From: Rhodoferax sp.
Lineage (GTDB): Bacteria > Pseudomonadota > Gammaproteobacteria > Burkholderiales > Burkholderiaceae_C
Direction: 5' to 3'
Length of the DNA: 40,280 bases
Assembly: GCA_025351745.1 (NCBI GenBank)
Contig: JANXVI010000350.1
Span: 1-40,280, forward strand
Below are positions 8,772 to 25,051 of this stretch, in pieces. The position numbers and the translations under genes were made by a program. Position 1 is the first letter of the stretch; each line of letters starts with the position of its first letter. Below the pieces are notes generated by a model. The model searched no databases and was not told the DNA's origin. It was given only the letters and a program-made list of their open reading frames with translations.

Positions 8772-8789
8772 TTATTGAAAGTGCATCAG

Positions 8790-9518
8790 ATGAACAAGGA
8801 AATCGCTCTCGTTTCGGGTGGGAGCAAAGGATTGGGTTTGGCCATCGTGCGCTCCTTGTTGGCCCGTGGTGACTCGGTTGCCACATTCGCCAGAAAGTCC
8901 AGCCCCGAAATGGAAGAACTCCAGGCGGCGCATCCAAGCCGGTTCAGTTTTGTTGAGGCCGACATAACCGAGACCCAGCGTTTTCGCAATCTGGTCAGCG
9001 CGTTTGAGGAGCAACTCGGGGGGTTTACCGGTCTCGTCAACAATGCCGGGACCGTCGCAGAGGCTTTGCTGGCGCGCCAGAATCCGGAGGACATCCTGCG
9101 GTTGTTGAGTACCAATCTTGCGGGTCCGCTTTTGTTGACGCGCGAAGTCGCGCGCGGCATGATGATCAGGCAGCGTGGTCGGATCATCAATATCAGTTCC
9201 ATCGTCAGTGTCTCAGGCTACAAGGGAACGGCCGCTTATTCGGCGACCAAGGGCGGACTGAATGCGATGACCAGGGCTCTGGCCCGGGAACTCGGGGGCC
9301 GCGGCATCACCGTAAACGCAGTCGCGCCAGGTTATATGGAAACTGACCTCGTCAAGGGGATGAGCCCCAAGCATCTGGCGCAAATTGTCCGCAGAACGCC
9401 GCTAGGGCGCCCCGGCACTGTGGAAGACGTAGCCAACGTCGTTGCGTTCTTGCTGAGCGACGCAGCGAGTTTTATTTCCGGGCAAACCATCGTCGTTGAC
9501 GGTGGATTGAATGCATGA
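8790..9518 (+). CDS. FabG-like short-chain dehydrogenase/reductase
   Basis: NAD(P)H-dependent reductase of 242 residues. The ATG at 8790 is chosen; in-frame TTG (8775) and GTG (8781) add up to five residues. Visible SDR motifs: nucleotide-binding VSGGSKGLGLAIV at the N-terminus, VNNAGT (about 87), catalytic Ser in INISSIVS, the YSATKGG Tyr-Lys pair (about 150), PGYMETDLV, and the C-terminal FISGQTIVVDGG typical of 3-oxoacyl-ACP reductases. It is 18 bp downstream of the ligase and closes the cassette. Likely reduces a 3-oxoacyl group carried by the cassette ACP, or the reverse. Confidence 0.88.
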   Translation: MNKEIALVSGGSKGLGLAIVRSLLARGDSVATFARKSSPEMEELQAAHPSRFSFVEADITETQRFRNLVSAFEEQLGGFTGLVNNAGTVAEALLARQNPEDILRLLSTNLAGPLLLTREVARGMMIRQRGRIINISSIVSVSGYKGTAAYSATKGGLNAMTRALARELGGRGITVNAVAPGYMETDLVKGMSPKHLAQIVRRTPLGRPGTVEDVANVVAFLLSDAASFISGQTIVVDGGLNA

Positions 9519-9631: not shown

Positions 9632-11401
9632 TCAGTTCACATCCACCAAAGCCTTGACAATGGTGTAAGGCCCTGAGTAACTGCCAGTTGCATTTTTGTA
9701 GCCCCTCGTCACGGCATCGCGTCGAAAGTTCAGCACAAAGCTAGAAGGATTATTCCGGTCCGACGGCGCAGTGCCGGTGCTCGATATGGGCGTCTGGTCA
9801 ATCATATGTTTGAACGTGGCGCTGCTGCTGCCAATGCCACTGGCATCGACTGCGAAAATATCGCTCGAGTTCAAGGCACTGCTGTATTGGTAGGCGCCGG
9901 TGCTGGACCCAATCAGTTGGGTCTTGCTGGTAGTGATGGTGCGGTCGCTGAACTTGAAACTGTCGCCTGCGGTCAGGTATGACAGGCGCACGCTGTCGGC
10001 GCTAAAGCGTGAGCCACTCCCGAAGTTTGTGGCAGTTGCCTCGGCGACAAAAACTCCGCCAGTTCCGTAAACCGTGGCGACGTCGCCATTCAAGTAGAGC
10101 GCTGTGTCTTGGTCGACACCATAGGCTACATTGGGCCCAATATTTTTCAGTGCCGCCAGCAGGCGACCGAGTCGGCCTGAGCGACTGGCACGATTGTCAA
10201 AATGGGTGTCTACATTGGCATTGGGTACAAACCCAAAACCTTTGATCTTGGTGCCATAGTCAGCGTTGTTGCTATTGGTCAGGCAACTGGGTGCAGGGGT
10301 GCCGTCAGATGCTGGCGCTACATAGGGGCAATTGGCCGGGGTGATGGCACGCAGGGTATTCTGGTTCAGATAACCAATGCTGATGCCTTCGCCATACGAG
10401 GTGCTGGGCGCATACGCGGTACCGGCGGAATCCCCTGCGTAGATGAAGTTGCCAGCGGCGTAGCGCGCACGGATGGTGGCCATCAGGGGGCTGTCAGAGC
10501 CATCGTCGGTGAGGAAAGTGCGCGCCAGTCGTGATTGGTCACCGCCGATCACATAGACCAGATCGGCCTGGTTGATGATGCCGATGTTGGCTTGACCTGT
10601 GGTGCTGGTACTGCCTGAGTTGCTGGCGTACGTGTCGTGATGGCTCAGGATGTGCTTGGGGGCAAAGCCGTGGCGTTGGAACAGGTTGTAGTAAGACCAT
10701 GCGCCGGTCGCTGTATCGTTGGTGAACTTGTCCACCCCATCAGCCTGGTTGACTGCAGCCGCCGTGATGATGGCTACACGCGGGCATTGCGTGGTGCTCC
10801 AGTTGGTATCGCAATTGGTCACGCTGTTGATGTTGGGTGTGTTGGTGTTCTTGCCAGTGGCTTGGCGCAGGCCACCCACAAAAATGCTCGCGTTCTCTTG
10901 CAGGATCTTGCCGCCGTTGAGCCAAACTTTGCCGGTCACCACGCTGGTGGGGGGCGGGTCTACCGGTGGGGTTGTAGAGCCTGGCAATTTGACGTTCAAG
11001 GTGTAGTTGCCGCTACCCTGGTAGCTTTTTACACGAATGAAATAGGTGCCGGCTGTAGTCACCTTGTATGAGCCGGTTTCCGGGTTGTTGACGGTCGACT
11101 TGTAGATCAGCGGCGCACCGGTCAGACCGTAGAAGTACCAATCAAAGTCCACGCCGTTGCCGTGCGACAGGCTGATGTCAATAGTGCCAGGTGTTGTAAC
11201 CACCACCTTGTACCAGTCCAGGTCTGAGGTGCTTGATAGTGAGCCGCTGACTTGGGTCCCGCTGCACAGCCCTGCATTCGCCGTCGCATCGGTATTGTTG
11301 GGCTCTACTTCGGCTGTGAGGCAGGTTGCCGCCATGACACCACTGCCCCAAAGGCAACTGGCCAGGGACGCCGCGAGCATGCTTTTCCAAACTATTTTCA
11401 T
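9632..11401 (-). CDS. Secreted cyanophycinase (peptidase S51) with N-terminal PPC domain
   Basis: Predicted extracellular cyanophycinase of 589 residues; this family cleaves cyanophycin to beta-Asp-Arg dipeptides. A signal peptide ends at about 24 (VMA-ATC). Residues 28-138 form a bacterial pre-peptidase C-terminal (PPC) beta domain (EVEPNNT...SGSLSSTSDLDWYKV...GTYFIRVKSYQGSGNYTL), followed by a Pro-rich linker and the S51 domain from about 155. Family landmarks are IGGDQSRL (about 285), the nucleophile Ser325 in YAGDSAGT, VDTHFDNRASRSGRLGRL, and GVDQDTAL. The nucleophile motif has Asp where CphB/CphE usually have Thr (GTSAG). PPC domains often aid secretion or substrate attachment. It has its own promoter region with an operator at 11528-11554 matching that of the divergent uptake operon. 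Cyanophycinase is the most specific assignment of S51; another S51 peptidase specificity cannot be excluded by eye. Confidence 0.85.
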   Translation of the reverse strand: MKIVWKSMLAASLASCLWGSGVMAATCLTAEVEPNNTDATANAGLCSGTQVSGSLSSTSDLDWYKVVVTTPGTIDISLSHGNGVDFDWYFYGLTGAPLIYKSTVNNPETGSYKVTTAGTYFIRVKSYQGSGNYTLNVKLPGSTTPPVDPPPTSVVTGKVWLNGGKILQENASIFVGGLRQATGKNTNTPNINSVTNCDTNWSTTQCPRVAIITAAAVNQADGVDKFTNDTATGAWSYYNLFQRHGFAPKHILSHHDTYASNSGSTSTTGQANIGIINQADLVYVIGGDQSRLARTFLTDDGSDSPLMATIRARYAAGNFIYAGDSAGTAYAPSTSYGEGISIGYLNQNTLRAITPANCPYVAPASDGTPAPSCLTNSNNADYGTKIKGFGFVPNANVDTHFDNRASRSGRLGRLLAALKNIGPNVAYGVDQDTALYLNGDVATVYGTGGVFVAEATATNFGSGSRFSADSVRLSYLTAGDSFKFSDRTITTSKTQLIGSSTGAYQYSSALNSSDIFAVDASGIGSSSATFKHMIDQTPISSTGTAPSDRNNPSSFVLNFRRDAVTRGYKNATGSYSGPYTIVKALVDVN

Positions 11402-11657
11402 TGTTTATCCTTCAACTGACGTTGCTGAACCTGGGTGAAGTCACCCGGTGGAAACCCCCTGGCACTGCCGCCGCACGTCAAGTGAAGCGAACGGTGCTAG
11501 CGATCTGCACTCCAGCAATGTATTGTTATTTTCATAATTAGTACATATGAAAATATAAGGACAAACCCTTTGCGGGATTCACACTAGGCGGTCAGGCTGA
11601 GCCTGGTCGCAATGACCACAGTTATGCAGCGAACGCCTAACGTTCGCGGTGGCACGT
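11402..11657. promoter_or_regulatory. Promoter region of the PPC-cyanophycinase gene
   Basis: This 256-bp spacer separates the end of the RpiR-type regulator gene from the start of the PPC-cyanophycinase gene, both on the minus strand. It is strikingly AT-rich around 11520-11560. On the minus strand a block of about 50 bases matches the region upstream of the binding-protein gene at 14806-14858. No gene is supported in it. Confidence 0.6.
11528..11554 (-). promoter_or_regulatory. Operator, site 1 of the proposed cyanophycin regulon
   Basis: Perfect inverted repeat ATTTTCAT-N11-ATGAAAAT. The same half-sites with the same 11-bp spacing occur at 14822-14848. Read on the minus strand, conservation extends outward: GGGTTTGTMCTTAT before the left half (one mismatch between the two sites) and AACRRTACATT after the right half. 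It lies about 125-150 bp before the cyanophycinase ATG. The likely binder is the adjacent RpiR-family regulator; this is inference from location and shared occurrence. Confidence 0.75.
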
Positions 11658-12653
11658 TCAGCCGCGGACGCTGCGTCTGGGTGGCCGATCTGCGCTGCCT
11701 TCGTTGCCCGGTTTATCGGTGTAGAGGTAGGCCGAAATCGCGTCCGTCAGCTTTTCCGCTTGCGTCACCTGGTTGTCTCCGCTGACCATCAAGCTGGTGA
11801 CCATGGCCTCGATGACCAGCAACGCCGCCGTGTAGCTGCTTGACAGCACGGGGTGGGTGGCCGGGGCCAGTAGAACGTCGTGAGACCAATGGGCCAGCGG
11901 GGAGGCCATGGAGTCGGTCAGTGCGATTACATGGGCACACCGGTCGCGCGCATAACGTGTCAGCAGCACCGCATCGCTCGCGTAGCGGGGGAACGAGATG
12001 GAGATCAGTAGATCTTTGGGGCCGATGTTCATCAGCCTTCCTGCCGCAACCTCCGTTCCGCCAAACTCCACCACGTTGATGGCCTGGCGGCAAAACGGTT
12101 GAAGGTCCAACGCCAACATCGCTGACAAGTGGGCACTGATGCCGAAGCCCAGCGTGTAAACAGTCTCTGCCGCCAAAATCTTGTGGGCCGTGGCTACCAG
12201 CATCGATGGGTTGAGGCCGGACGCTGCCGATTGAAAGTTGCTGACGCTGGCCTCAAGGCTTTCGGCAATGATGGGGTTGTGGTTGCTGCCGGATTGGTCC
12301 TTGCGCTGCAAAGCATTTCTCAGCTTGTCCACCGGTTGAAACACCGGTTGTAGCGCGTGTTGCAACGCGTCAGCCATACCGTTGCGCAGCGCCGCATACC
12401 CGTCGAACCCCAAAGTGCGCGCGAAGCGGCTGAGCGTGGCCGTTGACGTCTGGGTATTCTGCGCAAGTTCTTCAATACCCCACGCGGTGGCCCGTACCGG
12501 ATTGCGCAACAGAAAGTCGGCAATGGCTACGTTGGAGCCACGCCCGTCGGTCAGGATCTGTCGCAGTTGGAAACCCAGTGGTGATTGGGCAAATGCGGCA
12601 TCCACCGATGCGCTGGCAAATGTCTTTGGGCTTGCGTCTTCAGTTTTTTTCAT
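11658..12653 (-). CDS. MurR/RpiR-family transcriptional regulator (HTH + SIS)
   Basis: Regulator of 331 residues. The N-terminal HTH_6 domain spans about 25-100 (IADFLLRNPVRATAWGIEELAQ, then TSTATLSRFARTLGFDGYAALRNGM). The SIS ligand domain spans about 140-275 (VYTLGFGISAHLSAMLALDL; SISFPRYASDAVLLTRYA; VIALTDSMASPLA). SIS domains of this family classically bind sugar phosphates, but the gene sits between two cyanophycinase genes and overlaps the upstream one by 14 bp, so the effector here is more likely a product of cyanophycin breakdown. It presumably binds the ATTTTCAT-N11-ATGAAAAT sites at 11528 and 14822; RpiR proteins are known to bind palindromes with TTTC/GAAA half-sites. Whether it acts as repressor or activator cannot be read from the sequence. 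Confidence 0.88.
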   Translation of the reverse strand: MKKTEDASPKTFASASVDAAFAQSPLGFQLRQILTDGRGSNVAIADFLLRNPVRATAWGIEELAQNTQTSTATLSRFARTLGFDGYAALRNGMADALQHALQPVFQPVDKLRNALQRKDQSGSNHNPIIAESLEASVSNFQSAASGLNPSMLVATAHKILAAETVYTLGFGISAHLSAMLALDLQPFCRQAINVVEFGGTEVAAGRLMNIGPKDLLISISFPRYASDAVLLTRYARDRCAHVIALTDSMASPLAHWSHDVLLAPATHPVLSSSYTAALLVIEAMVTSLMVSGDNQVTQAEKLTDAISAYLYTDKPGNEGSADRPPRRSVRG

Positions 12654-14664
12654 GGAGCGGCTGTCTATCAGGGATCGCGGGTTTCATTGGTGCTGAGCCA
12701 GCGCCGGACAAGGGTTCACGATCTTGGCATGCGTCAGCGCAGGGGCCCATTGCAAGAATAAGCCCCGTGTAGGATACCCGGTCCAGCCCGCCCGGCTTGC
12801 TCGCTGCCCTGCCACGAAAGAACGTGAGGTTGTCGCGCTCGAGGGTCGCGCTGTACAACGGTGCATTTTGTACGCTGCGTGCATCTTCGCTGTTCCGGGT
12901 AGTACCGAACCCTCGTTGCGCACCCTTCAATCCCATCGCGTTGGCCAGGTGGAGAAAGTGGTACGAGCCGTAGTCCAGTAGCTGGTCCTGGGTGACGTGC
13001 GTGGCGCTGGGCGACACCGGCAACACCGGCGACGCGCTATCCAATTCGACGTTCAAGTCGCCCTGCAGGGTGATGGATGCGCGGTCGCCCGGCAACAAAT
13101 AGTGTGCCCGGGCTCCATGGATAAAGAAATGCCTGTTTGCGTCGGCAGGCGCCTTGGCACTGCGAACGTCCACGATGAAAACGCCACCCGCGCCAACCAC
13201 TGAAAAGTGTGTGGTATCAGTGGCATCCGCTTGGCTCACCAGTAGCGCTGTGTTCTCGTCCACGCCAAAACCATAGTCCATGCCGCTGTCATGCACTGCA
13301 CGCACCAATCGCGCCTCGCGGGTGCGCTTGGAGAAGTGTGAGTCCAGCACGCCGAAACGAAACACACCCAGTCCGCCACGCGGGTACAAGACCGGCGCAT
13401 AGGCAATGCTGTCGCCCGGTTTGCCAAGCTCTGGGGCTGCTGCAGCCGGGCCGTTGCCAACGATGAAGCCCGCTTTCAGCACCTCATAGGAGTCGCCTCC
13501 TCCAACCATCGGCACCGGCTTGCCCCGCCATAGGCCCCCGCCTTGGAAATGGTTGCCCGCACTGGTTCCAGCCACCACCAGTTGGCCTTGTGCATGGCGG
13601 CTTTGAATGATGGTGAGTTGCGCGCTAGGTACCGTGTATTGGCCGTTGCTGTCTTTTCCGACCAGGCTTTCCAGATGCCGTGCTTGGTCGCCCCCTGAAA
13701 AGTAGATGCCATTCAAACGCTCCAAGGTCTCATTCAGCAACTTAGCATGGTTCAAGCATAGGCCTTGTTGCTGCTCGGACAGGTCGGGGAACAGCACGTC
13801 TGCGTGGTAAACAGGCTGCGACGGATTGGTGTTGGCGTAGCTGTCGTAGTAGTAGCGCACATTGCCACAATCCTGCGCATCCAGGGCCTGCCGATACCCA
13901 CCGTCCAAGGGCAGGTAGACCACGTCGGCACCGGCAGATGCCATCGTGAACACATTGATGTCGCGGTCTGCAAAGGGGTGGGAGTCCGCTGAGGCTGTTA
14001 CCACCCCAATCAAGGGCTTCTTGCCAGCATTGGCGGCGCGGGCCGCCGCCACAAAGCTGTGTGTAATCGCCACACTGTCGACATTGGACGAAAACAGGGT
14101 AGAGCGGGCCTGCAGTTTGCGAGCGATGGGCGCGCCCCGGTCCAGTAAGGCGGACCGCAAAACTGCGCCTTGTGCGAGCGACAGCCTGCCATTGCCCCGC
14201 AACAACGTGTCGGGCAAAAATTGCTCCAATGCTTGCCAAGACAGCCCGGTGAGGAATCCCGATTCTTTGATACGTTGCGCCAGGTGCGCGATCACCACCT
14301 GTTTTTTGAGCGGGTCGAATAGGGGTGCCGGAATATTGCGGATGGCCTCGATGCCCAGCGCGGTTACGCTGTAGCGGAAAACGGGCGCGCCAACCTCCGC
14401 GTCGAAGCTGATGTTGTCTCGGCGCAAGCCCGCAAACGCCGGGTCCTGCGCCAGGATCGTGTTCCAGTCGGCCAAACAGTCGCGGCCCTGCGTGCTGGCA
14501 CTAAAACTCGAACAGCGCCGCTCAGCACCACCGATGACAACGTTGGCAATGGGTGGCGCCGTGTCGGCCGCAACGGGCCCGGCCATGCAAAAAAGCAGCG
14601 CAATGGGCAGTGTGCGTAGCCCATCTAAAACGGCACGGGCGTTCAGGGAAAAGCGGTGTGGCAT
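12640..14664 (-). CDS. Second secreted cyanophycinase-family protein (peptidase S51), extended
   Basis: Predicted secreted S51 serine peptidase of 674 residues with a signal-peptide-like start (hydrophobic 17-33, PVAADTA). The S51 core begins near residue 200: GKKPLIGVVTASADS, then FSGGDQARHLESL (about 332-345), nucleophile Ser368 in VVAGTSAGNHFQGGGL, LDSHFSKRTREARLVRAVHDSGMDYGFGVDENTALLV, matching cyanophycinase landmarks including the canonical GTSAG. Compared with intracellular CphB (about 270 residues) and CphE-type exoenzymes (about 400), it carries some 160 unrecognised N-terminal residues and a long C-terminal tail. Its gene is divergent from the uptake operon and runs into the RpiR regulator gene (14-bp overlap), indicating an operon. 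Two non-identical secreted cyanophycinases in one locus suggest division of labour, for example surface-bound versus released, or endo- versus exo-like action. Confidence 0.85.
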   Translation of the reverse strand: MPHRFSLNARAVLDGLRTLPIALLFCMAGPVAADTAPPIANVVIGGAERRCSSFSASTQGRDCLADWNTILAQDPAFAGLRRDNISFDAEVGAPVFRYSVTALGIEAIRNIPAPLFDPLKKQVVIAHLAQRIKESGFLTGLSWQALEQFLPDTLLRGNGRLSLAQGAVLRSALLDRGAPIARKLQARSTLFSSNVDSVAITHSFVAAARAANAGKKPLIGVVTASADSHPFADRDINVFTMASAGADVVYLPLDGGYRQALDAQDCGNVRYYYDSYANTNPSQPVYHADVLFPDLSEQQQGLCLNHAKLLNETLERLNGIYFSGGDQARHLESLVGKDSNGQYTVPSAQLTIIQSRHAQGQLVVAGTSAGNHFQGGGLWRGKPVPMVGGGDSYEVLKAGFIVGNGPAAAAPELGKPGDSIAYAPVLYPRGGLGVFRFGVLDSHFSKRTREARLVRAVHDSGMDYGFGVDENTALLVSQADATDTTHFSVVGAGGVFIVDVRSAKAPADANRHFFIHGARAHYLLPGDRASITLQGDLNVELDSASPVLPVSPSATHVTQDQLLDYGSYHFLHLANAMGLKGAQRGFGTTRNSEDARSVQNAPLYSATLERDNLTFFRGRAASKPGGLDRVSYTGLILAMGPCADACQDREPLSGAGSAPMKPAIPDRQPLHEKN

Positions 14665-14919
14665 GACAAAGAGACTCCACTGGCAATGGAACAGACTCCG
14701 TCGCTGAATTTATCAACGAAATGAGCGATGAAAGCAGGGCCGTCGACAAAACCGAAAGCCGCGCGCGCAGTGAGGGATTTTGGCCGAGACCGTGCGGAAG
14801 AGCGCAAGGGTTTGTACTTATATTTTCATGCAAACACTTTATGAAAATAACGGTACATTATGGATTCCGTGTCCGGAACCGTTTCTCTCTTCAACCCATT
14901 TCGCCTTTCAGGAGTGTCC
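14665..14919. promoter_or_regulatory. Divergent control region of the cyanophycin locus
   Basis: Spacer between the second cyanophycinase (minus) and the binding-protein operon (plus). It contains the operator at 14822-14848 embedded in a conserved AT-rich block from about 14806 to 14858, placed so as to control both directions. No separate gene is supported. An in-frame ATG at 14860 lies just after the block, but the binding-protein start at 14920 has the ribosome site. Confidence 0.65.
14822..14848 (+). promoter_or_regulatory. Operator, site 2 of the proposed cyanophycin regulon
   Basis: Perfect inverted repeat ATTTTCAT-N11-ATGAAAAT, identical in half-sites and spacing to site 1 at 11528-11554; the 11-base spacers differ. 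Outer flanks carry a further GTAC...GTAC symmetry. Located about 70 bp before the binding-protein ATG and about 160 bp before the divergent cyanophycinase ATG, so a single bound dimer or tetramer could control both transcripts. Confidence 0.75.
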
Positions 14920-15705
14920 ATGTCCCGCAAATTGCCGCTCGTTCTCGCAGCTGTCGTCCTCTTGGGCATGGCTGTGGGGGCGCATGCCCAGGCCCCTGGT
15001 TGGGCCAAAATTCGCATCGGCGTAGAAGCCAACTACCCGCCGTTTTCCCAGATGGGGACTGACGGCAAGTTCTCCGGCTTTGACATTGATATCGCCAACG
15101 CGATCTGCGCCCAGATGAAAGCCGAATGCACTCTGGTGTCGCAAGAGTGGGACGGCATGATGCCGGCACTGAACGCCCGCAAGTTCGACATGATCGTCGC
15201 GTCGATGACGATTTCTGAGGAGCGCCTCAAGGTGGCCGACTTCAGCGATTCGTACTACGACATTCCATCCACCTTCATTGCCAAGACGGGCGTGTTCAAG
15301 GACATCACCCCGGCCAGCCTTAAAGGCAAGACCATCATCGTGACACGCAACACACCGCGTGCCAAGTACATCGCGGAGCAATACAAAGACAGCCAGGTCC
15401 TGCAGGTGGCCAAAGAAGCCGACGTGACCATGGAGTTGTCGGCAGGCCGCGGCGACGTCGGCTTTGGCTCTTCATTGGCGGCCACCACTGCATTCTTAAA
15501 GTCACCTGAGGGCAAAAGCTTCAGCAAAGTAGGCCCGCCCATCAACCCCAGTGGCAACAAGGGCGGAGGCACCGGTATCGCCATGCGCAAAGGCGAAGAG
15601 TCGCTGCGCAGCAAGGTCAACCTGGCTCTCAAAGCGATCACGGCTAATGGTGTCTACAAGACTCTCAACGACAAGTATTTCGACGTCAATATTCGCGGCG
15701 AATAA
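14920..15705 (+). CDS. ABC transporter periplasmic binding protein (amino-acid family 3)
   Basis: Solute-binding protein of 261 residues. The ATG at 14920 has AGGAG six bases upstream and gives a clean signal peptide (LPLVLAAVVLLGMAVGAHAQA), so it is preferred to the ATG at 14860. The mature part shows the family-3 layout: IRIGVEANYPPFSQM, FSGFDIDIANAICAQM, WDGMMPALNARKFDMIVASMTISEERLKVADFS, and a second lobe with GKTIIVTRNTPRAKYI. It belongs to the Lys/Arg/Orn/His-type (ArgT/HisJ) group of periplasmic proteins. As first gene of an operon with a TonB receptor, two permeases, an ATPase and arginine-catabolic genes, its likely ligand is beta-Asp-Arg dipeptide or arginine. The binding pocket cannot be assigned by eye. 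Confidence 0.9.
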   Translation: MSRKLPLVLAAVVLLGMAVGAHAQAPGWAKIRIGVEANYPPFSQMGTDGKFSGFDIDIANAICAQMKAECTLVSQEWDGMMPALNARKFDMIVASMTISEERLKVADFSDSYYDIPSTFIAKTGVFKDITPASLKGKTIIVTRNTPRAKYIAEQYKDSQVLQVAKEADVTMELSAGRGDVGFGSSLAATTAFLKSPEGKSFSKVGPPINPSGNKGGGTGIAMRKGEESLRSKVNLALKAITANGVYKTLNDKYFDVNIRGE

Positions 15706-15751
15706 AGCGCGGCTGTAACTACCCCCCCTCCCTAAAACCCCCAAGGCCCCC

Positions 15752-18529
15752 ATGAACCAAACTTCTATCTCCGGTCGTGCCCGCAGCCCCTTTGCACTGC
15801 GCCCTTGCGCCCACGCCACCGCTATCCTGTTGGCCATGTGCGCCAACCAGGCGGCATTCGCCCAAACCGAGTCCCCGTCGAAACTGGACCGCGTAGAGAT
15901 CACCGGAAGCTCCATCAAGCGCTTGGAGTCCGAGACTGCCTTGCCGGTGCAGGTGATCAAGCGAGAAGACATCGACAAGAGCGGCGCGTCCACCGCTGCA
16001 GAAATCCTGAAGGGCATCAGCGCCAACACCGCACCTTTGACTGACGGCGCCAGTATCACCGACGGTACCTCGGGACAGCGGGGCTTCAACGGCGCCAATC
16101 TACGCGGCCTGGGCGTGTCGTCCACGCTGGTGCTGCTCAATGGCCGACGCCTGGCCAACTTCGCGACGCCCGGTGACAACGCTGGCGTGGACCTGAACAA
16201 CATCCCGGCGGGTGCCATTCAGCGCGTGGAAGTGCTCAAAGACGGTGCATCCGCCATTTACGGCACCGACGCCATTGGCGGCGTCATCAACTTCATCACG
16301 CGCAAAGACTACCAAGGCTTTGATGTCAGCGCATCCGCGGCCAACACCCAAGAAGGCGGCGCGGGTAAAAAGACACTCAGCGTCAGCGGTGGCTATGGCG
16401 ACCTCAGCTCCGATGGCTTCAACCTGATGGGCGTGCTGGACCTGCAAAAGCTCGAAGCCCTGCGCTCCAGCCAACGCCAGTTCATCCAGGACCGTCCATT
16501 GGCCACGCTGTTGCCAGCGCTGATGTCCAGCAAGCCCTATCCCGCCAACATGCGCATCCGCTCTGAAGCGCAGTGGAAGGCCATGCAGCAAGCCGGTTTG
16601 CTGCCCGCCGACGCACCTTATGTGCGCAGCACCTTGGTCAACCCCGCAGCGCCCAACTGCAACCCACCGGCCAGTGTTTACGCGATCAATAGCCCCGGTG
16701 GCAAATACGGTTGTAGCTACGACTACATGCGCGATACCGAAATCTACCCAGAGTCCACCAAAAACAGCTTCCTGGGTCGTGCGACCGTCCAGATCAACCC
16801 GGACAACCAGATGTTTGCCGAGTTGATGCAAAGCAAGGCCAACAGCACTTACCGGCTGAGCCCCAATCCACAAAACATCAGCAGCTTTCCGGTTGCCTAT
16901 TTGCCCACAGCGTATCGCACGGCTTTGACGGGCCCAGGTCTGCCCAGCTCCGTCAACCGCATCCAGTTGCGCATGACGGAAGCCGGCAACCGCACCAACG
17001 AAGTCACCAGTACCGGTCAGCGTATGGTCGTGGGTGCAAATGGGCTGGTGGGCGGCTGGGACTATGACGTAGCCGTCTCGCGTGCCGAGAACCGTGCGAT
17101 CGACAAATATGTCGACGGTTATGTGTTGTACGACCAATACGCTGCGGGTGTACTCAACGGCAGCATCAACGCTTTTGGTGCATCCGGCCCGGCCGGTCAA
17201 GATCTGCTGCGCAACATCAAGGTCAACGACGAAGCCCGCAGTTCCAAAGGTGTGACCACCAGTTTGGATGGCAAGGTTTCCAAGGCCTTGATGGCGTTGG
17301 GTGGTGGTGACCTGGCGCTGGCCCTGGGTGGTGAACTGCGCAACGAGAATGCCACGTTTACACCGTCCGCCTTGCTGCTGTCCAACAACATTGGCGGCGA
17401 CCGTGACACTGGCGCGTTGGCCGGCTCCAGCACCGCTCTAAAAGCCACCGACGACAACCGCCAGGTCAGTTCGGTATTTGCCGAAGTCAGTGCGCCCATC
17501 AGCAAGCAGGTAGAACTGCAAATGGCATTGCGTTACGACAACTACAGCGACGCCGGTAGCAGCACCAACCCCAAGTTCGGCGTGCGCTGGCAGCCGCAGC
17601 AGAACCTGTTGGTCCGCGCATCGGCGGGAACCGGGTTCCGCGCGCCATCTTTGAATGACCTCAAAGGCCCAACGACCTATGGTTCGGCGTCCAGTTTCTT
17701 GACCGACCCCGATTGCGTCAAAAGCGGTGGCAGCATCGACGGTTGTACCGACCAATGGCCGGTGGAGCGTCGCTCCAACCCCAACCTGAAGCCTGAGAAG
17801 TCGCGCCAGTTCTCGTTGGGGTTCGTGCTGGAGCCCAGCAAGAGCTTCAACTTCAGCGTGGACTACTGGAACATCCGCAAGACCGACGTCATCAGCACAC
17901 TGGGTGAGCAAGTCATCATTAGTAACACGGCAGCTTACAACGGCAACATCATCCAGCGCGACGCCGATGGCAACATCACCAATATCATCTTAAAGAAGGA
18001 AAACCAGGGTGCCTTGGACACTGCTGGTCTGGATTTTGGCGCCGACTACCGCGGTCCTGCCACCGACATGGGTCGCTTCAGCGTGGGAATGAACGGCACA
18101 CTGGTCTTGACATATGACCGCCAATTCGGAGCGCTCGAGCCTACCCGCAGCAACCTCGGCCAGTTTCTGAACGACCAGGTGATCCAAAAATGGCGCCACC
18201 GCCTGAGCTTTGGTTGGGACATGGGGCCGTTCAGCCTGACGCTGGCCAACCAGTATTCGTCTGGCTATACCGACCAGAACACCACCTACGACCCCACGAC
18301 CAACAAGTTGTTGACGGCGCGCGATGTTGAGGCCTATTCGTTGTGGGATTTGACCGGCAGCTACGCGATCACCAAGGCGCTCAAGGTCCGCGCAGGTGTA
18401 TTGAACCTGATGAACACCGCACCACCGTTCTCCAACCAAGCCTACTACTTCCTGGCGGGCTACGACCCCACCTACACCGACCCACGGGGCCGCAGTGCAT
18501 TCGTCAGTGTGAACTATTCGTTCAAATAA
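15752..18529 (+). CDS. TonB-dependent outer-membrane receptor, candidate for cyanophycin fragments
   Basis: Outer-membrane active transporter of 925 residues. A signal peptide ends QAAFA at about 38; a TonB-box-like stretch (LDRVEITGSSIKR) directly follows. The plug domain is clear: LPVQVIKREDIDKSGASTAAEILK, RGFNGANLRGLGVSSTLVLLNGRRLAN, IPAGAIQRVEVLKDGASAIYGTDAIGGVINFIT. The remainder is a beta-barrel with FRAPSLNDLK and NPNLKPEKSRQFSLGF, ending FVSVNYSFK (a terminal Lys after the usual Phe). It belongs to the large RagA/OMR-type receptors used for peptides, glycans and other bulky substrates rather than an evident siderophore subgroup. It is 46 bp downstream of the binding protein, and amino-acid ABC systems seldom come with such a receptor. 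The simplest reading is import of cyanophycin-derived peptides released by the two secreted cyanophycinases. Confidence 0.88.
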   Translation: MNQTSISGRARSPFALRPCAHATAILLAMCANQAAFAQTESPSKLDRVEITGSSIKRLESETALPVQVIKREDIDKSGASTAAEILKGISANTAPLTDGASITDGTSGQRGFNGANLRGLGVSSTLVLLNGRRLANFATPGDNAGVDLNNIPAGAIQRVEVLKDGASAIYGTDAIGGVINFITRKDYQGFDVSASAANTQEGGAGKKTLSVSGGYGDLSSDGFNLMGVLDLQKLEALRSSQRQFIQDRPLATLLPALMSSKPYPANMRIRSEAQWKAMQQAGLLPADAPYVRSTLVNPAAPNCNPPASVYAINSPGGKYGCSYDYMRDTEIYPESTKNSFLGRATVQINPDNQMFAELMQSKANSTYRLSPNPQNISSFPVAYLPTAYRTALTGPGLPSSVNRIQLRMTEAGNRTNEVTSTGQRMVVGANGLVGGWDYDVAVSRAENRAIDKYVDGYVLYDQYAAGVLNGSINAFGASGPAGQDLLRNIKVNDEARSSKGVTTSLDGKVSKALMALGGGDLALALGGELRNENATFTPSALLLSNNIGGDRDTGALAGSSTALKATDDNRQVSSVFAEVSAPISKQVELQMALRYDNYSDAGSSTNPKFGVRWQPQQNLLVRASAGTGFRAPSLNDLKGPTTYGSASSFLTDPDCVKSGGSIDGCTDQWPVERRSNPNLKPEKSRQFSLGFVLEPSKSFNFSVDYWNIRKTDVISTLGEQVIISNTAAYNGNIIQRDADGNITNIILKKENQGALDTAGLDFGADYRGPATDMGRFSVGMNGTLVLTYDRQFGALEPTRSNLGQFLNDQVIQKWRHRLSFGWDMGPFSLTLANQYSSGYTDQNTTYDPTTNKLLTARDVEAYSLWDLTGSYAITKALKVRAGVLNLMNTAPPFSNQAYYFLAGYDPTYTDPRGRSAFVSVNYSFK

Positions 18530-18564
18530 GCCCAAATTGGGTTTTTAGCCAAGCTCTCATTGGC

Positions 18565-18619
18565 AAATCGGCTGGTAGCCCTCGTGGGACGTGCGCTACC
18601 AGCTCCTAATTCAATAGCA
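18565..18619 (+). repeat. Dispersed repeat, copy B
   Basis: About 55 bp lying between the TonB receptor and the first permease gene, inside the operon. It has the family centre TAGCCCTCGTGGGA and the right end AATTCAATAGC. The arms GCTGGTAG and CTACCAGC form a perfect 8-bp inverted repeat, so the transcript can fold here; it might set relative expression of the distal genes. A short CCCAAATTGGGTTTTT tract precedes it at about 18537 and resembles a weak terminator. Confidence 0.6.
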
Positions 18620-18632
18620 ACCGGATCTCACT

Positions 18633-19319
18633 GTGCTCTACGGTTACCTTCCAGCCATTCTTGAGGGGCTGGGCCTGACGCTGCGCGTCTCGGCCCTGTC
18701 GCTTGCCATTGCCTGCGTCTTCGGGCTGGTTGGCGCTGCCGCCAAGTTGTCGGACTCGCGCGTTGCGCGCTGGAGCGCCGAGGTCTACACCACGCTGATC
18801 CGCGGCATGCCCGAGCTGGTGCTGATGCTGCTGATCTTCTACGGCGGCCAGATTGGCATCAACCGGCTTGCCGAGTCGCAGGGCTGGGACTACATCGACG
18901 TGCCACCGTTTTTGGCCGGTGTGCTGACCATTGGCTTCATCTTTGGTGCCTACCTGACCGAGACCTTTCGCGGCGCCATTTTGGCCGTTCCCAAAGGCCA
19001 AGCCGAGGCGGGTCATGCCTTTGCGCTGTCTCGCACCATGGTCTGGTGGCGCATCGTGTTGCCACAGATGGTGCGCCATGCCATCCCCGGCTTTGCCAAC
19101 AACTGGCTGATCATGATCAAGGCTTCGGCCCTGGTGTCCATCATTGGGTTGGACGACATGGTGCACCGCGCCGGTCTGGCAGCGGCATCCACCCGTGCCC
19201 CGTTTACGTTTTACGTGGCGGTGGCGCTCATTTACCTGACGCTGACCAGCGTCTCCATCTTTGCCCTGTCGCGTCTTGAAGCGCGCTTCAGCCTGGGCGT
19301 CAAGAAAGTGCAGTTCTAA
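18633..19319 (+). CDS. ABC transporter permease, HisQ/ArtQ type
   Basis: Inner-membrane permease of 228 residues, GTG start at 18633. It has about five membrane helices and the cytoplasmic EAA-like loop GQAEAGHAFALSRTMVWWRIVLPQMVRHAIPGF that contacts the ATPase. The segment VYTTLIRGMPELVLMLLIFYGG is typical of polar-amino-acid permeases of the His/Arg/Lys/opine family. The next permease starts one base after its stop, so the pair is translated together and presumably forms the heterodimeric channel. Substrate follows from context: arginine-containing dipeptide or arginine. Confidence 0.9.
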   Translation: MLYGYLPAILEGLGLTLRVSALSLAIACVFGLVGAAAKLSDSRVARWSAEVYTTLIRGMPELVLMLLIFYGGQIGINRLAESQGWDYIDVPPFLAGVLTIGFIFGAYLTETFRGAILAVPKGQAEAGHAFALSRTMVWWRIVLPQMVRHAIPGFANNWLIMIKASALVSIIGLDDMVHRAGLAAASTRAPFTFYVAVALIYLTLTSVSIFALSRLEARFSLGVKKVQF

Positions 19320-19320
19320 C

Positions 19321-20061
19321 GTGCAGTGGCAAACCATACTCGACAGCCTGCCGCTCTATGTGGAGGGAATCCGCACCACCCTCGTGTTGCTGGTCATCAG
19401 CCTGCTCAGTTCTTTCGCGCTGGCCGTGCCGCTGGCTGTCGCGCGGGTCTCGTCCAATCGCTGGTTGTCCCGGTCCGTCTGGTTCTACACCTATGTGTTG
19501 CGCGGCACACCGTTGCTGGTGCAGTTGTTTATCCTGTACCACGGCTTGGCGCAGTTCGAGGTGGTGCGTGAGAGTGCCGCCTGGGTGTTGCTACGCAACG
19601 CCTGGTTTTGCGCCTGGCTGGCCTTTACGCTGAACTCCACCGCCTACAGCACCGAGATCTTTGCCGGTGCCCTCAAGGCCACGAATAACGGCGAGATTGA
19701 GGCCGCGCGCAGCTACGGGCTCAGCGGCTTTACGCTGTACCGGCGCATCCTGCTGCCCAGCGCATTACGCCGTGCGCTGCCGCAGTACAGCAACGAGGTG
19801 GTCGGTTTGATGCATGCCACCGCTATCGCCAGCACGGTCACGCTCGTGGACATCACACGAGTAGCCCGTGATGTGTATGCCAATACGCTGCTGGTCAGCG
19901 AATCGTTTGGTGTCGCTGCGTTCATCTACTTTGTACTGACTTTTACCCTGGTCGGCATCTTCAAGCTGCTGGAGCGGCGCTTTATGCGCCATCTGCGGCC
20001 GCAGCAGACCCATCAGCCCGCAATCTTTGAACCCCAAACCCTATGCATACCCAAACCCTAG
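19321..20061 (+). CDS. ABC transporter permease, HisM type
   Basis: Second channel subunit, 246 residues from a GTG at 19321 one base after the preceding stop; the frame is open further upstream but that part overlaps the first permease. Features: IRTTLVLLVISLLSSFALAVPLAVAR, YTYVLRGTPLLVQLFILYHGL, and the EAA loop EIEAARSYGLSGFTLYRRILLPSALRRALPQYSNEV. Both subunits are related but clearly not duplicates, as in HisQM. The C-terminal 19 bases overlap the start of the zinc hydrolase gene, showing coupling of transport and intracellular cleavage. Confidence 0.9.
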   Translation: MQWQTILDSLPLYVEGIRTTLVLLVISLLSSFALAVPLAVARVSSNRWLSRSVWFYTYVLRGTPLLVQLFILYHGLAQFEVVRESAAWVLLRNAWFCAWLAFTLNSTAYSTEIFAGALKATNNGEIEAARSYGLSGFTLYRRILLPSALRRALPQYSNEVVGLMHATAIASTVTLVDITRVARDVYANTLLVSESFGVAAFIYFVLTFTLVGIFKLLERRFMRHLRPQQTHQPAIFEPQTLCIPKP

Positions 20062-21158
20062 AACTTTTGAGTGGCTCGCCCGGCATTCGCCAAACCCTGC
20101 AAGTGCTGCGCTTTGGTGCGCCCGGCGCAGGGCCAAAGGTCTACATCCAAAGCGCGTTGCACGCCGACGAAGTGCCCGCGATTTTGGTGGCCCAGCATCT
20201 GGCCCAATTACTGGCGCAGGCTGAAGCCGATGGCCGTGTCCTTGGCGAAATTGTGCTGGTGCCTTTTGCCAACCCGATCGGTCTGGGGCAATATTTGTTT
20301 GGCCAGCACCATGGCCGCTTTGATGTGCGCGATGGCGGCAATTTCAACCGCGGCTATGCTGAGCTGGCAACCCAATTGGCGGCCAGCGTGCGCCCACTGT
20401 TGACGAACGTTGTGGCGCATAACACCCAAGTCATTCGCAGCGCAATGGCGCAGGCCGTTGAAGCATTGACGGCGACCACTCCGACACAAGATTTGAAGAA
20501 CAAACTGTTGGCGCTGGCCATCGATGCCGATGTGGTGCTGGATCTGCACTGCGATACCGATGCCGTCATGCACCTGTACGCACTGACACCGCAGGCTGCC
20601 ATTGCCGAGCAACTGGGTGCTGCGTTGGGCGCCCGCGCGGTGCTGTTGGCTACCGAGTCGGGCGATTCTCCCTTTGACGAAGCCTGCACCCGCCCCTGGT
20701 TTGATTTGCAAAGGCTGTTGCCCGAGTTTCCGATTGACCTTGCATGCTTTGGCGCGACCGTAGAGCTGCGCGGCGAAACCGATACCAGCCACATCCTGGC
20801 CGAGCAGGACGCACAGGGGTTGTGCACCTTTCTGGCCCAGCGCGGAGTGCTGAGCGGTGTCGCCGATGCTGTGCGTGGCCCCCAGTGTGCGCCGACCCCG
20901 TTGTCGGGGTCAGAGCCCATCACCGCCCCGCATGCCGGTGTGGTCGTGTTCCACCGCAATCCCGGCGAGCGGGTGGTGGCAGGCGATGTGATAGCCGATG
21001 TGGTCGATGCCCTGACCGGCACCGTGACCCCGCTGCGTTGCAAATCCGACGGTCTGCTCTACGCCCGCTGCGGCTCGCGCTGGGCGGTGCCTGGCAAGCG
21101 CCTGGCCAAGATCGCCGGCACGTCGCTGGCCCGAACCGGCAAGCTGCTCAGCCCCTGA
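20043..21158 (+). CDS. M14-type zinc hydrolase (AstE/aspartoacylase-like), candidate beta-Asp-Arg dipeptidase
   Basis: Cytoplasmic metallo-hydrolase of 371 residues of the succinylglutamate desuccinylase/aspartoacylase branch of the M14 carboxypeptidases. Zinc ligands are visible as His40 and Glu43 (ALHADE) and His169 (LDLHCDTD); GGNFNRGY (98-105) carries the substrate-binding Asn-Arg pair, and TVELRGETD near residue 240 holds the catalytic Glu. The C-terminal 90 residues look like the biotinyl/lipoyl-like beta domain common in this branch ([26 protein letters not shown]). The gene overlaps the permease by 19 bp within the uptake operon. I recall that a zinc-dependent cyanophycin dipeptide hydrolase (CadA), distinct from IadA and IaaA, has been described from such clusters; this gene is the obvious candidate here. 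Family assignment is firm; dipeptidase specificity is inferred from context. Confidence 0.82.
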
Positions 21159-21189
21159 GCGCATGCAAACCATTTTGAGAGATTCTTCC

Positions 21190-21963
21190 ATGGCCGACCA
21201 CACCATCCTGCAAGGACTGGACATCTGCAAACGCTTTGGCACCAACGAAGTGCTAAGGGGGGTCAGCATTACCGCCAACAAGGGCGATGTGATCTCGATG
21301 ATCGGCTCCAGCGGTTCAGGCAAGAGCACATTTTTGCGCTGCCTCAATCTGTTGGAGCAACCCAACGCGGGACGCATCGTGCTGGATGGAGAAGAGCTGC
21401 GACTGGTGCCGGACAAACAGGGCACGCTCAAGGTCAGCAGCCAAGCCCAGTTGCAACAGTTGCGGGCGCAAGTATCCATGGTGTTCCAGCACTTCAATTT
21501 GTGGGCGCACATGACGGCAGTTGAAAACGTCATTGAGGCACCGATCCACGCCTTGGGCCTGAGCAAGGCAGAGGCGCTGGAGCGTGCCCATGCCTACCTG
21601 CAGCGCGTGGGGGTGTACCACCGCAAGGATGCGTTTCCGGCGCATCTGTCCGGCGGTGAACAGCAACGGGTGGCCATCGCCCGCGCTTTGGCGATGGAGC
21701 CCAAGGTCATGCTGTTTGACGAGCCGACATCGGCACTGGACCCTGAGCTGGTCAGCGAGGTTTTGCGCGTGATGCGCTCGGTTGCGGAGGAGGGCCGCAC
21801 CATGGTCGTGGTGACGCATGAGATGGGCTTTGCGCGCGAGGTCAGCAACCAACTGGTGTTCTTGCACAAGGGCCAGATTGAGGAACAGGGCGAGCCATCT
21901 GAAGTGTTGTCGCGCCCCCGCAGCGAGCGCCTGCAAGCATTTCTATCCAACAGTCTGAAATGA
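21190..21963 (+). CDS. ABC transporter ATPase, polar amino-acid (HisP) type
   Basis: Nucleotide-binding subunit of 257 residues. ATG at 21190 follows a GAGAG ribosome site; an in-frame ATG at 21163 lacks one. Motifs: Walker [10 protein letters not shown] (about 36-44), Q-loop [12 protein letters not shown], signature [15 protein letters not shown], Walker [15 protein letters not shown], and switch His in VVVTHEMGF. HisP/GlnQ-type. It completes the importer with the binding protein and two permeases of the same operon; the placement after the hydrolase gene rather than next to the permeases is somewhat unusual. Confidence 0.93.
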
Positions 21964-21976
21964 AGCGGATGCGCCC

Positions 21977-22921
21977 ATGACCCGCTATATCGACGTGACC
22001 GCCATGCAGCAACTGGTGTTGCAGCATGGTGTTGCAGCGCTGATGGCCGAAATGGCCGATTGCATACGCGAAGGCTTCTTGCGCTGGGATGAATTCGACC
22101 AGTCGCACCGCATCAACATGGCCGTCGGCGTCGGCGTGTTGGCGGACGCCGCCACCGGCTACCCCATGCTGTTGAGCGAAATCACCATCCTCACCGCGTT
22201 GCGCACGGCTGCCACCTCGGCCCTGGCAGCCAAGGTGTTGGCGCGCCCTAATAGTCGCAGCATGGCCTTGATTGGCAATGGTTCGCAGAGCGAGTTTCAG
22301 GCGATTGCCTTCATGACCCAGTTGGGCATAACCGAGCTGCGGGTGTTTGATGTGGACCGGCAGGCTACCGACAAGCTGGTGGCGAATCTGTCGCCCTACG
22401 TCACCAACGGCACCTTGCGCATCGTGCGCGCGTCGTCCATTCGCGAAGCCGTGCGGGGAGCTGACATTGTGACCACGGTCACCGCGGACAAGACAAACGC
22501 CACTATTTTGACCGACGACTTAGTCAAGCCGGGCATGCACCTGAACGCGGTCGGTGGCGATTGTGCTGGCAAGACCGAGTTGCAGCCCAGCATCTTGTTG
22601 CGCTCCAAAGTATTTGTGGAGTATGAGCCGCAGACCCGTGTGAGGGGTGAGTTGCAGCAGATGCAGCAAGACTTCAAAACGTATGCGCTGTGGCAGGTTT
22701 TGGCGGGCCGTCAGCCGGGGCGCGACACCGCCGAGCAAGTCACGCTGTTCGATTCGGTGGGCTTCGCACTGGAAGACCTTTCGGCCCTGCGTTACATCCA
22801 CGCGCTGTCCCAGAAGCTCGGCGTGGGCAGCACGGTGGACCTGATACCGGCGTTGCGCAATCCCAAGGATCTGTTTGCGTGCGCCGCTGCAGCACGCGCC
22901 ACACTGCGCCAAGCCGCATGA
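21977..22921 (+). CDS. Ornithine cyclodeaminase family protein
   Basis: NAD-dependent enzyme of 314 residues of the ornithine cyclodeaminase/mu-crystallin family; the reference reaction is L-ornithine to L-proline plus ammonia. Visible motifs: ILTALRTAATSALAAKVLARP, the Rossmann start SMALIGNGSQSEFQAIAF, VTTVTADKT, and the hallmark GMHLNAVGGDCAGKTEL followed by VFVEYEPQTRVRGE. The GGDC...KTEL version is the one found in true ornithine cyclodeaminases rather than in alanine dehydrogenase or ketimine reductase relatives. It starts 13 bp after the ATPase gene and overlaps the arginase start by 4 bp (ATGA). In the pathway it takes the ornithine made by arginase. Confidence 0.88.
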   Translation: MTRYIDVTAMQQLVLQHGVAALMAEMADCIREGFLRWDEFDQSHRINMAVGVGVLADAATGYPMLLSEITILTALRTAATSALAAKVLARPNSRSMALIGNGSQSEFQAIAFMTQLGITELRVFDVDRQATDKLVANLSPYVTNGTLRIVRASSIREAVRGADIVTTVTADKTNATILTDDLVKPGMHLNAVGGDCAGKTELQPSILLRSKVFVEYEPQTRVRGELQQMQQDFKTYALWQVLAGRQPGRDTAEQVTLFDSVGFALEDLSALRYIHALSQKLGVGSTVDLIPALRNPKDLFACAAAARATLRQAA

Positions 22922-23826
22922 GTTCGCGCGGATTGCAACTGATAGGCGCCCAGGTTGGCGAAGGCGCCAGCGACGGCGGCTGTAAGTGGGGCGCGCCTGC
23001 ATTGCGTGAGCATGGCATTGCGCAAGCCCTGACAGCCACCGGCCGTGCTGTTACTTGGGGTGACACCATCACCGCACAGCCCTTGCAGGCCAGCAGCCGG
23101 TTGGATGCGATCGAAGTCTTTTCTGCGCAACTCGCCGCCTCGGTTGAAAAGTCGCTGCTCGGGGGCCTGCAGCCTTTGGTGATTGGTGGTGACCACTCCA
23201 GCGCCGCAGGAACGTGGAGCGGTGTTGCGCAGTTCTTGCGCCCGTCCGGCCGAATGGGACTGATCTGGATCGACGCCCATATGGACGCCCATACGCCCCA
23301 GACATCCGACAGCCAGGCGCCACACGGCATGCCGTTGGCTGCATTGCTGGGCCGTGGATCCGATGGAATGGCTGGTCTGTACGGCTGGCGTGGCAAGGTG
23401 TTGCCGCAGTGCGTGGTGGTCATAGGCGCACGCAGCTATGAGCCCGCGGAGGCCCAATTGCTGACTGAACTCTAGGTGCGTGTGATGACCATGGATGAGG
23501 TGCTGGATCGCGGTTTTGCCGCCTGCTTTGACGAGGCTCGCGCCGTTGTTAAGCAAGGTACCGCAGGGTGGGGATTGACGCTAGACCTGGATGGTCTCGA
23601 TCCGCTGGATGCACCGGGCACAGGGACACCCGTTGAGACTGGCATCCGCCTGGCCGATGCGTTGCCGGTCTTGGCAGGTTGCAGCCACGACCCGAGCTTT
23701 GTGGCTATGGAACTGGCAGAGTACAACCCCTTGCGAGACTTCGGGGGCCATACCGCACAGGCCGCCATCCAGCTGGTGTGTGCCGCGCTCGCTCCCGATC
23801 GACGGCGCAAGGCGTTGGCTGCATAA
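22918..23826 (+). pseudogene. Arginase interrupted by an in-frame TAG
   Basis: Arginase/ureohydrolase that would be 302 residues long if read through. The TAG at 23473-23475 is codon 186; the second half continues in the same frame to 23826. The first half holds the Mn ligands His93 (GGDHS), Asp119, His121 and Asp123 (IDAHMDAH). The second half, from VRVMTMDEV, holds Asp223 and Asp225 (LDLDGLDP). Neither half alone has a complete Mn site. The protein phrase around the stop (TELxVRVMTMDEV) fits the conserved LGVRVxTMDE of arginases, so the stop probably replaces Gly, which would need at least two base changes from a Gly codon. A GTG at 23476 directly after the stop could restart translation. 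Options: recent nonsense mutation, sequencing error, amber readthrough, or two-chain assembly. The role would be arginine to ornithine plus urea; no urease is in the window. Confidence 0.85.
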
Positions 23827-24541: not shown

Positions 24542-25051
24542 TTATGCAGCATCTTTGCTCAGGAAGTCCACCAGCGCGCCATTGACAAGGCGCAGGCGCT
24601 CGCTCAACAGGCGCGTGAGCCGCAGTAACAGTTTGATGCCCATGGCTTCGTTGACGACCAGGATGCGTTCAAACTGGGTCTTGGGTAACAGCGCAAGCAC
24701 ACACGGTTCGGTTGCGACGCAGGTGGCGGATCGCTTTTCGCCGTCGATAGCTGCCATCTCACCGAATGTGCGACCCGCGACGATGTGGGTCACAAACTGC
24801 GCGACGTGCGCTGCATCGGTTTTGCGCACTTCGATCTGGCCCGACAGCAGCAGCCCCATCGCATCGCCCGCCTCGCCTTCTTCAAACAGCAAGGTTCCCG
24901 CGCTGGCGCGGTAGCCCGCCATGTACGAACTCAGGGCGTCGAGTTCGTCCCAGGACCAGTCTTTGAACAGGGGTGACCGCGACAAAGATTCACAGACCTC
25001 AATACGAAACGCGCGGGACTTGGGGATGGCTTGGAACGAATGGGTATGCAT
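24542..25051 (-). CDS. Stand-alone cyclic nucleotide-binding domain protein
   Basis: Protein of 169 residues with one Crp-type cNMP-binding domain (about 25-145) and no HTH. The phosphate-binding cassette is FGEMAAIDGEKRSATCVA, with the Glu and Arg needed for cyclic nucleotide binding in place. The C-terminal 35 residues (LLLRLTRLLSERLRLVNGALVDFL) form a helix but no DNA-binding motif. It may act as a cAMP or c-di-GMP responsive protein-interaction module; the partner is unknown. Confidence 0.82.
   Translation of the reverse strand: MHTHSFQAIPKSRAFRIEVCESLSRSPLFKDWSWDELDALSSYMAGYRASAGTLLFEEGEAGDAMGLLLSGQIEVRKTDAAHVAQFVTHIVAGRTFGEMAAIDGEKRSATCVATEPCVLALLPKTQFERILVVNEAMGIKLLLRLTRLLSERLRLVNGALVDFLSKDAA

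Follow-up and report, generated by a model that had tools for sequence, protein, structure and literature searches.

Cyanophycin serves cyanobacteria and other microbes as a store of nitrogen. In Pseudomonas, the aot operon with AotO/CphZ presumably combines uptake of the dipeptide with its splitting, in a gene order that we take to be binding protein, Q, M, CphZ, P. A cyanophycin utilization locus for environmental polymer, in which the genes for cyanophycinase, isoaspartyl dipeptidase and transporter lie together, was described by Ben Hania et al. (2017, as cited in PMC10206079). Furthermore, an extracellular cyanophycinase, CphE, is described for P. alcaligenes (PMC3235067), two structurally different S51 proteins are mentioned in cyanobacteria feeders (PMC6243061), and a TonB gene near a cyanophycinase gene in Citromicrobium gave rise to the idea that a TonB transporter handles cyanophycin (PMC3400609). 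Here, we describe a locus at positions 9632 to 23826 of a stretch of 40,280 nucleotides from Rhodoferax sp. (the window; contig JANXVI010000350.1 of GenBank assembly GCA_025351745.1), which comprises two S51-family genes, an RpiR-family regulator and a divergent operon with a TonB-dependent receptor. Judged by its genes and their surroundings, it is likely a conserved and jointly regulated cluster for the uptake and use of external cyanophycin in a Rhodoferax-like bacterium.

In many ways the locus resembles these known systems. Binding protein, Q, M, CphZ and P follow one another as they presumably do in the aot operon, and in both cases dipeptide uptake would be coupled to splitting, whereas the operon studied here carries a TonB receptor gene inserted between those of the binding protein and Q, with S51 and RpiR genes divergent to it. 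As in the utilization locus of Ben Hania et al. (2017, as cited in PMC10206079), S51-family, dipeptidase and transporter genes are adjacent. However, that locus comprises IadA and belongs to Bacteroidetes, while the window holds a CphZ-like dipeptidase, an aot-type ATP-binding cassette (ABC) transporter, a TonB receptor and RpiR with an operator, and a cyanophycin synthetase is found in the genome.

The locus consists of two divergent runs. The minus-strand run leads from the long cyanophycinase-like protein S51b (674 residues; 12640-14664), over an overlap of 14 bases, to the RpiR/MurR-family regulator (331 residues; 11658-12653; HTH_6 and SIS both above the Pfam cut-off) and on to S51a (589 residues; 9632-11401), which has a promoter region of its own. 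On the plus strand, a family-3 binding protein of Lys/Arg/Orn type comes first (14860-15705; SBP_bac_3; 214 bits with TIGR01096, below the cut-off of 256). It probably starts at ATG 14920 after AGGAG and not at the mechanical start 14860. It is followed by the TonB-dependent receptor (925 residues; 15752-18529; plug and beta-barrel above the Pfam cut-off), by ABC permeases of HisQ/AotQ type (18633-19319) and HisM/AotM type (19261-20061, a mechanical start, the true one probably lying later), by a CphZ-like AstE/M14 hydrolase (371 residues; 20043-21158), by an ABC ATPase of HisP/AotP type (21163-21963; like the permeases, assigned by family profile matches), by an ornithine cyclodeaminase family protein (21977-22921; PRK07589 421.9 bits, cut-off 350) and by an arginase frame (22918-23826; Pfam Arginase above cut-off on its first part). 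Thus the Pfam and profile matches bear out the inventory of an earlier note made from the sequence alone, which had listed two S51-family genes, RpiR and a divergent transporter operon with TonB receptor and M14-type hydrolase.

In the mechanism that we propose, the two S51 proteins, which are predicted to be secreted, would cut the polymer outside the cell. The TonB-dependent receptor would move the released β-Asp-Arg or short oligomers over the outer membrane, the arginine-type ABC transporter would bring β-Asp-Arg over the inner membrane, and the CphZ-like enzyme would cleave it to Asp and Arg. A palindromic operator would place both the transporter operon and the second of the two S51 genes under the control of the RpiR-family regulator. 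That these parts act as one external-cyanophycin system, as the earlier note had supposed, is favoured by four observations: the set is kept in relatives, it shares an operator, the receptor is linked to S51 and cphZ genes elsewhere, and a variant locus with other enzymes exists.

For the first of these, 100 genomes of the genus, including the genome of the window (G000), were examined, and the same set of genes was found on one contig in eight further genomes and split in another. CphZ-like matches occur in 84 of the 100 genomes. Eleven of them show 70-100% identity and are here called locus-type, a contig-end fragment at 59% (G025) being left out, and the others show 36-48%. This second type of cphZ lies in a plain aot-type operon in all three genomes inspected (own, G072, G107). 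Among the 11 locus-type genomes, rpiR, an S51b-like gene, the binding protein gene and cphZ share one contig in G000 and eight others. The locus of G003 lies on two contigs, the break falling within the receptor gene, and the contig of G012 ends inside the ATPase gene. Loci L002-L007 and L009 coincide with the contigs of G003, G076, G022, G116, G009, G104 and G012 and were counted once. The M permease of G003 (L056:10616-11413) runs through three frames and is either broken or misassembled. Among named records, the closest loci are those of Rhodoferax sp. and of metagenome-assembled genomes of other Burkholderiales.

The putative operator, a palindrome of the form ATTTTCAT-N11-ATGAAAAT found by pattern scan, lies before S51a (11528-11554, minus strand) and in the divergent promoter region (14822-14848, plus strand). 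At up to two mismatches these are the only matches in the window, compared to 0.01 expected by chance, and the shared operator of the earlier note is thereby upheld. A longer element, AGGGTTTGTnCnnA-ATTTwCAT-N11-ATGwAAATA...TACATT, precedes both S51a (11528-11568) and the binding-protein gene (14808-14848). The strict pattern gave 12 matches in nine of the 11 locus-type genomes, all of them at these two promoters, and none in a reversed control. It was not found in G103 and G107, where palindrome copies with 0-2 mismatches precede the operon. In G009, the S51a gene sits on a separate contig and still has the element. Two other genera carry the palindrome with 0-2 mismatches before operon and S51 gene (G236; G187, with the S51 gene on another contig and a weaker copy). 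When 36 stretches were scanned at up to two mismatches and a spacing of 11, the palindrome was present in 13 of 19 stretches with an rpiR homologue and in none of 17 without; L062 and L033, with rpiR elsewhere in the genome, belong to neither group. Once the operator-defining genomes are excluded, 7 of 13 rpiR stretches retain it, while mononucleotide shuffles gave 0.04 matches per locus at up to three mismatches. Since many of the scanned loci are kin, these counts are not independent. RpiR would presumably bind this palindrome.

A link outside the genus is provided by the receptor. A search with the receptor only, regardless of context, in 399 genomes of the order (E ≤ 1e-200) found 14 including our own, and the other 13 loci were inspected. 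In 11 of them, the receptor gene directly adjoins an S51 gene (gap < 1 kb), compared to about 1% expected within 10 kb by chance, since the 13 genomes hold 24 model matches in approximately 55 Mb. In 10 of the 13 loci, cphZ is found at a distance of no more than about 10 kb, eight times in an aot-type operon, and rpiR is nearby in five. In two loci without aot-type transporter, a DcuC-family carrier follows cphZ (L069:12895-14283, L080:13292-14704), and in L073 the surroundings of the receptor and S51 genes include genes for a class-III aminotransferase and an aldehyde dehydrogenase. Of the 11 S51 proteins encoded next to the receptor, nine pass the curated cyanophycinase cut-off and two fall short of it, at 121.4 and 123.1 bits. 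All 11 keep the catalytic Ser, His and Glu as well as Gln, Asp and three Arg, and so does the S51 protein of G265 (L068), a locus met by another route, where a receptor of 66% identity stands beside an S51 gene (125.7 bits, just below the cut-off) and an aot-cphZ operon. Four further families of the order show the link of the receptor to S51 and cphZ genes. When 25 receptors were placed in a tree, 22 of them separated from two paralogues encoded in the own genome with a support of 93/98, which is under the usual mark of 95/80; 19 of these 22 come from loci with S51 and cphZ, one from a locus with S51 only and two from unlinked loci. The genus receptors at this place fall into three sub-branches, G009 grouping with L076/L077 (100/100) and G104, more weakly, with L080 (89/84), and consequently receptors seem to be exchanged within one family.

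G185 (L060) carries a variant of the locus: a TonB receptor of 38% identity, CtlX (415.9 bits, cut-off 334), RpiR and two S51 proteins with 93.0 and 69.8 bits, below the curated cut-off. Here, an IaaA-type peptidase (343 bits with Pfam Asparaginase_2, above cut-off; 431.5 with PRK10226, below the cut-off of 567) and a dipeptide-type ABC transporter replace CphZ and the aot-type transporter. A different hydrolase and a different transporter around the same core are expected if the common substrate is cyanophycin. IaaA degrades β-Asp-Arg (PMC10206079). The G185 receptor falls outside the main receptor group, at an unsure position where long branches meet.

The hydrolase of the window (AstE_AspA_cat above cut-off) is CphZ-like, and β-Asp-Arg splitting is predicted for it. 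Its best structural relatives are PDB 8ein (E 8.9e-78) and 8eip (E 6e-77), both deposited as succinylglutamate desuccinylase, which we take to be structures of CphZ, a β-Asp-Arg dipeptidase. The next AstE-like structure scores far lower (86.8 versus 265 bits). In the aligned stretch 8ein and 8eip differ by a single residue, a Glu that is Ala in 8eip, and the window hydrolase has this Glu, the presumed catalytic residue. This relationship led us to read the plus-strand run as an aot-type operon with an inserted TonB receptor. Where enzymes of cyanophycin clusters carry an M14- or AstE-like annotation, they are reported to act as isoaspartyl dipeptidases with specificity for β-Asp-Arg and β-Asp-Lys (PMC10206079).

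The S51 proteins are more divergent. S51b has counterparts to the residues given for CphE (Ser171, His224, Glu251, Gln136, Asp222, Thr223, Arg228, Arg230 and Arg233; PMC3235067) in Ser368, His443, Glu470, Gln327, Asp441, Ser442, Arg447, Arg449 and Arg452. When S51b is aligned with the best 120 of its 298 hits (121 rows in all), these catalytic and pocket residues are invariant except at the Thr/Ser site (Ser 119, Thr 2). Thus, S51b resembles CphE as a predicted exported S51 enzyme with all listed residues but one. For S51a, aligned likewise with the best 120 of its 155 hits, Ser325 and His400 are kept in all 121 rows and Gln289 in 120. The AlphaFold models of both proteins have a mean predicted local distance difference test score of 88.5, and cyanophycinase structures are the best matches of the predicted folds (E 7e-13 and 1.3e-13). 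S51a is above the Pfam cut-off for both PPC and Peptidase_S51, its modelled N-terminal domain resembling PPC/collagen-binding domains, whereas S51b stays just below the cut-off of the Pfam S51 model (20.3 bits, 23.9 required). Both have hydrophobic N-termini, from which export is predicted. When only homologues starting with Met are counted, 100 of 114 for S51b and 99 of 115 for S51a carry a hydrophobic 12-mer within their N-terminal 45 residues, and a lipobox-like motif is found in 12 and 29, respectively.

S51b-like proteins are rare in the bacterial family: among 399 genomes, five encode one (E ≤ 1e-40), and the own genome is among these five. Second S51b-like genes of 59-60% identity and without the operator are present in the own genome (G000:C429:13156-15015, L029) and in G003 (C205, L031:9768-11741), the latter downstream of leuS and flanked by methyltransferase-like and holA-like genes (names given by eye). 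The whole locus is flanked by lptE and holA in G107 and comes after leuS and a gene resembling lptE in G236, so that the leuS/lptE/holA region is perhaps an old site of the locus. Another S51 protein, of 889 residues (L063:9914-12583), begins with LCAC followed by Gly, which resembles a lipoprotein signal, and may be located at the cell surface.

Several findings weigh against a cyanophycin system as drawn here. With the TIGR02069 cyanophycinase equivalog, S51a scores 82.3 and S51b 84.6 bits, both below the curated cut-off of 126.6; consequently we call them cyanophycinase-like and do not file them as curated cyanophycinases. Both differ from CphE (PMC3235067) in this respect and in being longer, S51a having a PPC domain. 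Of the CphE-type residues tested (Ser-His-Glu, Gln, Asp, three pocket Arg), which are complete in S51b, S51a lacks Glu, having Gln431 at this site; among the 121 rows Gln occurs 88 times, Glu 32 times and His once. The receptor is found at the locus in nine of the 11 locus-type genomes (split in G003) and is missing in G107 and G103. In G103, rpiR, binding protein, Q, M, cphZ, P, cyclodeaminase and arginase genes are present with neither an S51 gene nor a receptor gene there. Within the receptor family, both S51 and cphZ are missing from 2 of the 13 loci, L074 and L075. Of the 19 loci with an rpiR homologue, six (L008, L060, L061, L069, L070, L071) do not show the operator with a spacing of 11. 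L061 has a perfect palindrome with spacing 12 upstream of its rpiR, and allowing three mismatches gave no match in L060 and L008, both of them S51 loci. In L008, from Massilia glaciei, the S51 gene adjoins RpiR and then a chemotaxis protein, and the stretch gave no transporter, receptor or cphZ match.

The end of the operon belongs to the same side of the balance. The arginase frame is interrupted by an in-frame TAG at 23473-23475 and is not open over its full length, and the cyclodeaminase lacks about 36 residues of its fold, including FKYVNGHP, which are present in G076, G103 and G104. In the latter case, the loss is internal and in frame and leaves the frame open; with 36-38 residues it recurs in G072 (L050:16724-17659) and G003 (L056:7795-8697). 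Since G003 and G072 have it in common, an assembly error of this contig is unlikely. The lost stretch presumably holds a substrate-binding lysine. The enzyme may be a changed or dying one. For arginase, a frameshift is ruled out, as the break is an in-frame stop without shift. The gene is uninterrupted in G009, G072, G076, G103 and G104 and broken by a stop elsewhere in G003, and the stop codon of the window may result from an assembly error. Both genes follow the operon in 7 of the 11 genomes (G000, G003, G009, G072, G076, G103, G104). They were not seen downstream in G107, where holA follows, in the 2.7 kb examined of G022, or in the 1.7 kb to the contig end of G116. Since this tail looks degraded, arginine is probably used by other routes, and the use through the locus's own arginase and cyclodeaminase, as proposed before, is not sustained.

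Where the polymer would come from is a separate question. The earlier note had found no cyanophycin synthetase and had therefore pictured feeding on polymer made by others. This holds for the window, but not for the genome (5.1 Mb in 498 contigs, 91.7% complete, 6.85% contaminated; the window is its contig C229), where contig C202 encodes a synthetase with 994 bits (cut-off 850) and contig C175 a second match with 702 bits. Thus, a scavenger without synthesis of its own is ruled out, and the organism probably makes cyanophycin. Synthetase matches (E ≤ 1e-100) occur in 98 of the 100 genus genomes, 83 of them above the curated cut-off. Given these genes, the polymer could stem either from other species or from lysed cells of its own kind, and the probably exported S51 enzymes would act on polymer outside the cell. 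Cyanobacterial polymer in fresh water as the source is a guess.

That the same machinery recycles cyanophycin from lysed own kin instead of cyanobacterial polymer is a minority view which we nevertheless take seriously. It would fit to the near-universal synthetase and to matches of the cyanophycinase model in only 19 of the 100 genus genomes (two above cut-off), but if it were the rule, locus-type cphZ would hardly be confined to 11 of them. We regard it as unlikely that the locus serves a broader scavenging of β-aspartyl or basic peptides, such as isoaspartyl or arginine-rich ones, with cyanophycin as one substrate or none. The binding protein and permeases of Lys/Arg/Orn and His type would suit such a role, as would the scores of both window S51 proteins; however, the specificity reported for CphZ (PMC10206079) and the nine of 11 S51 proteins that exceed the curated cut-off beside the receptor family elsewhere speak for cyanophycin.

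The receptor itself might import something else, an iron complex or a vitamin, and stand in the operon by incident. It matches several iron and B12 receptor models, weakly and far below all cut-offs, β-Asp-Arg is small enough for porins, and two genomes do without the receptor. Yet the S51 neighbours in 11 of 13 loci and the three sub-branches of one family at the same place in the genus make this improbable in our view. Finally, S51 peptidases can confer resistance to microcin C-like compounds (PMC9239234), and the S51 proteins could thus protect the cell instead of feeding it. As the toxic payload of such compounds acts inside the cell, while the S51 proteins here look exported and their neighbours catabolic, we consider this scarcely credible.

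Beyond the locus itself, we put forward a wider and more tentative proposal, to which we give somewhat less than even weight: that a distinct TonB receptor family of Burkholderiales specifically serves to import cyanophycin products over the outer membrane. It would capture the β-Asp-Arg or short oligomers freed when the polymer is cut at the cell surface and draw them in actively, under an RpiR regulator with an operator of its own, in bacteria that also make the polymer and could thus both hoard and raid it. Such a system would be the nitrogen-polymer counterpart of Sus-type polysaccharide loci. Concerning the passage of cyanophycin or its dipeptide over the outer membrane of scavengers, the literature examined holds remarks on gene neighbours only (PMC3400609). 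The Citromicrobium case is likened to ours by gene neighbourhood and is a single example, whereas here a receptor family with repeated linkage, cphZ, an operon and an operator come together. Cyanophycin utilization loci, an extracellular cyanophycinase and one TonB-cyanophycinase pair are known in print; what is new, as far as the literature was searched, is that one receptor family is repeatedly linked to such genes, that an RpiR regulator comes with an operator, and that a receptor gene is inserted into an aot-type operon. In the titles and abstract openings covered, we found no description of this locus or of an RpiR regulator of cyanophycin use. If the proposal is true, receptor family, regulator and operator would be genome markers of cyanophycin feeders, and the passage of nitrogen from producers of cyanophycin to the bacteria around them could be tested gene by gene. 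The figure of 2.8% of betaproteobacterial genomes with cphA1 that have a recognisable cyanophycinase (PMC10206079) would also be touched by divergent, probably exported S51 proteins below the curated cut-off.

Outside the locus, some frames of the window were assigned by eye. On the minus strand, a second TonB-dependent receptor (25228-27423) lies next to a cNMP-binding-like frame (24542-25051), and frames for tryptophan 2,3-dioxygenase and kynureninase are adjacent at 29018-31315. At 4670-6256, a frame for a caspase-like protein lies upstream of a run of MaoC-like, acyl-CoA ligase-like and FabG-like frames (6961-9518).

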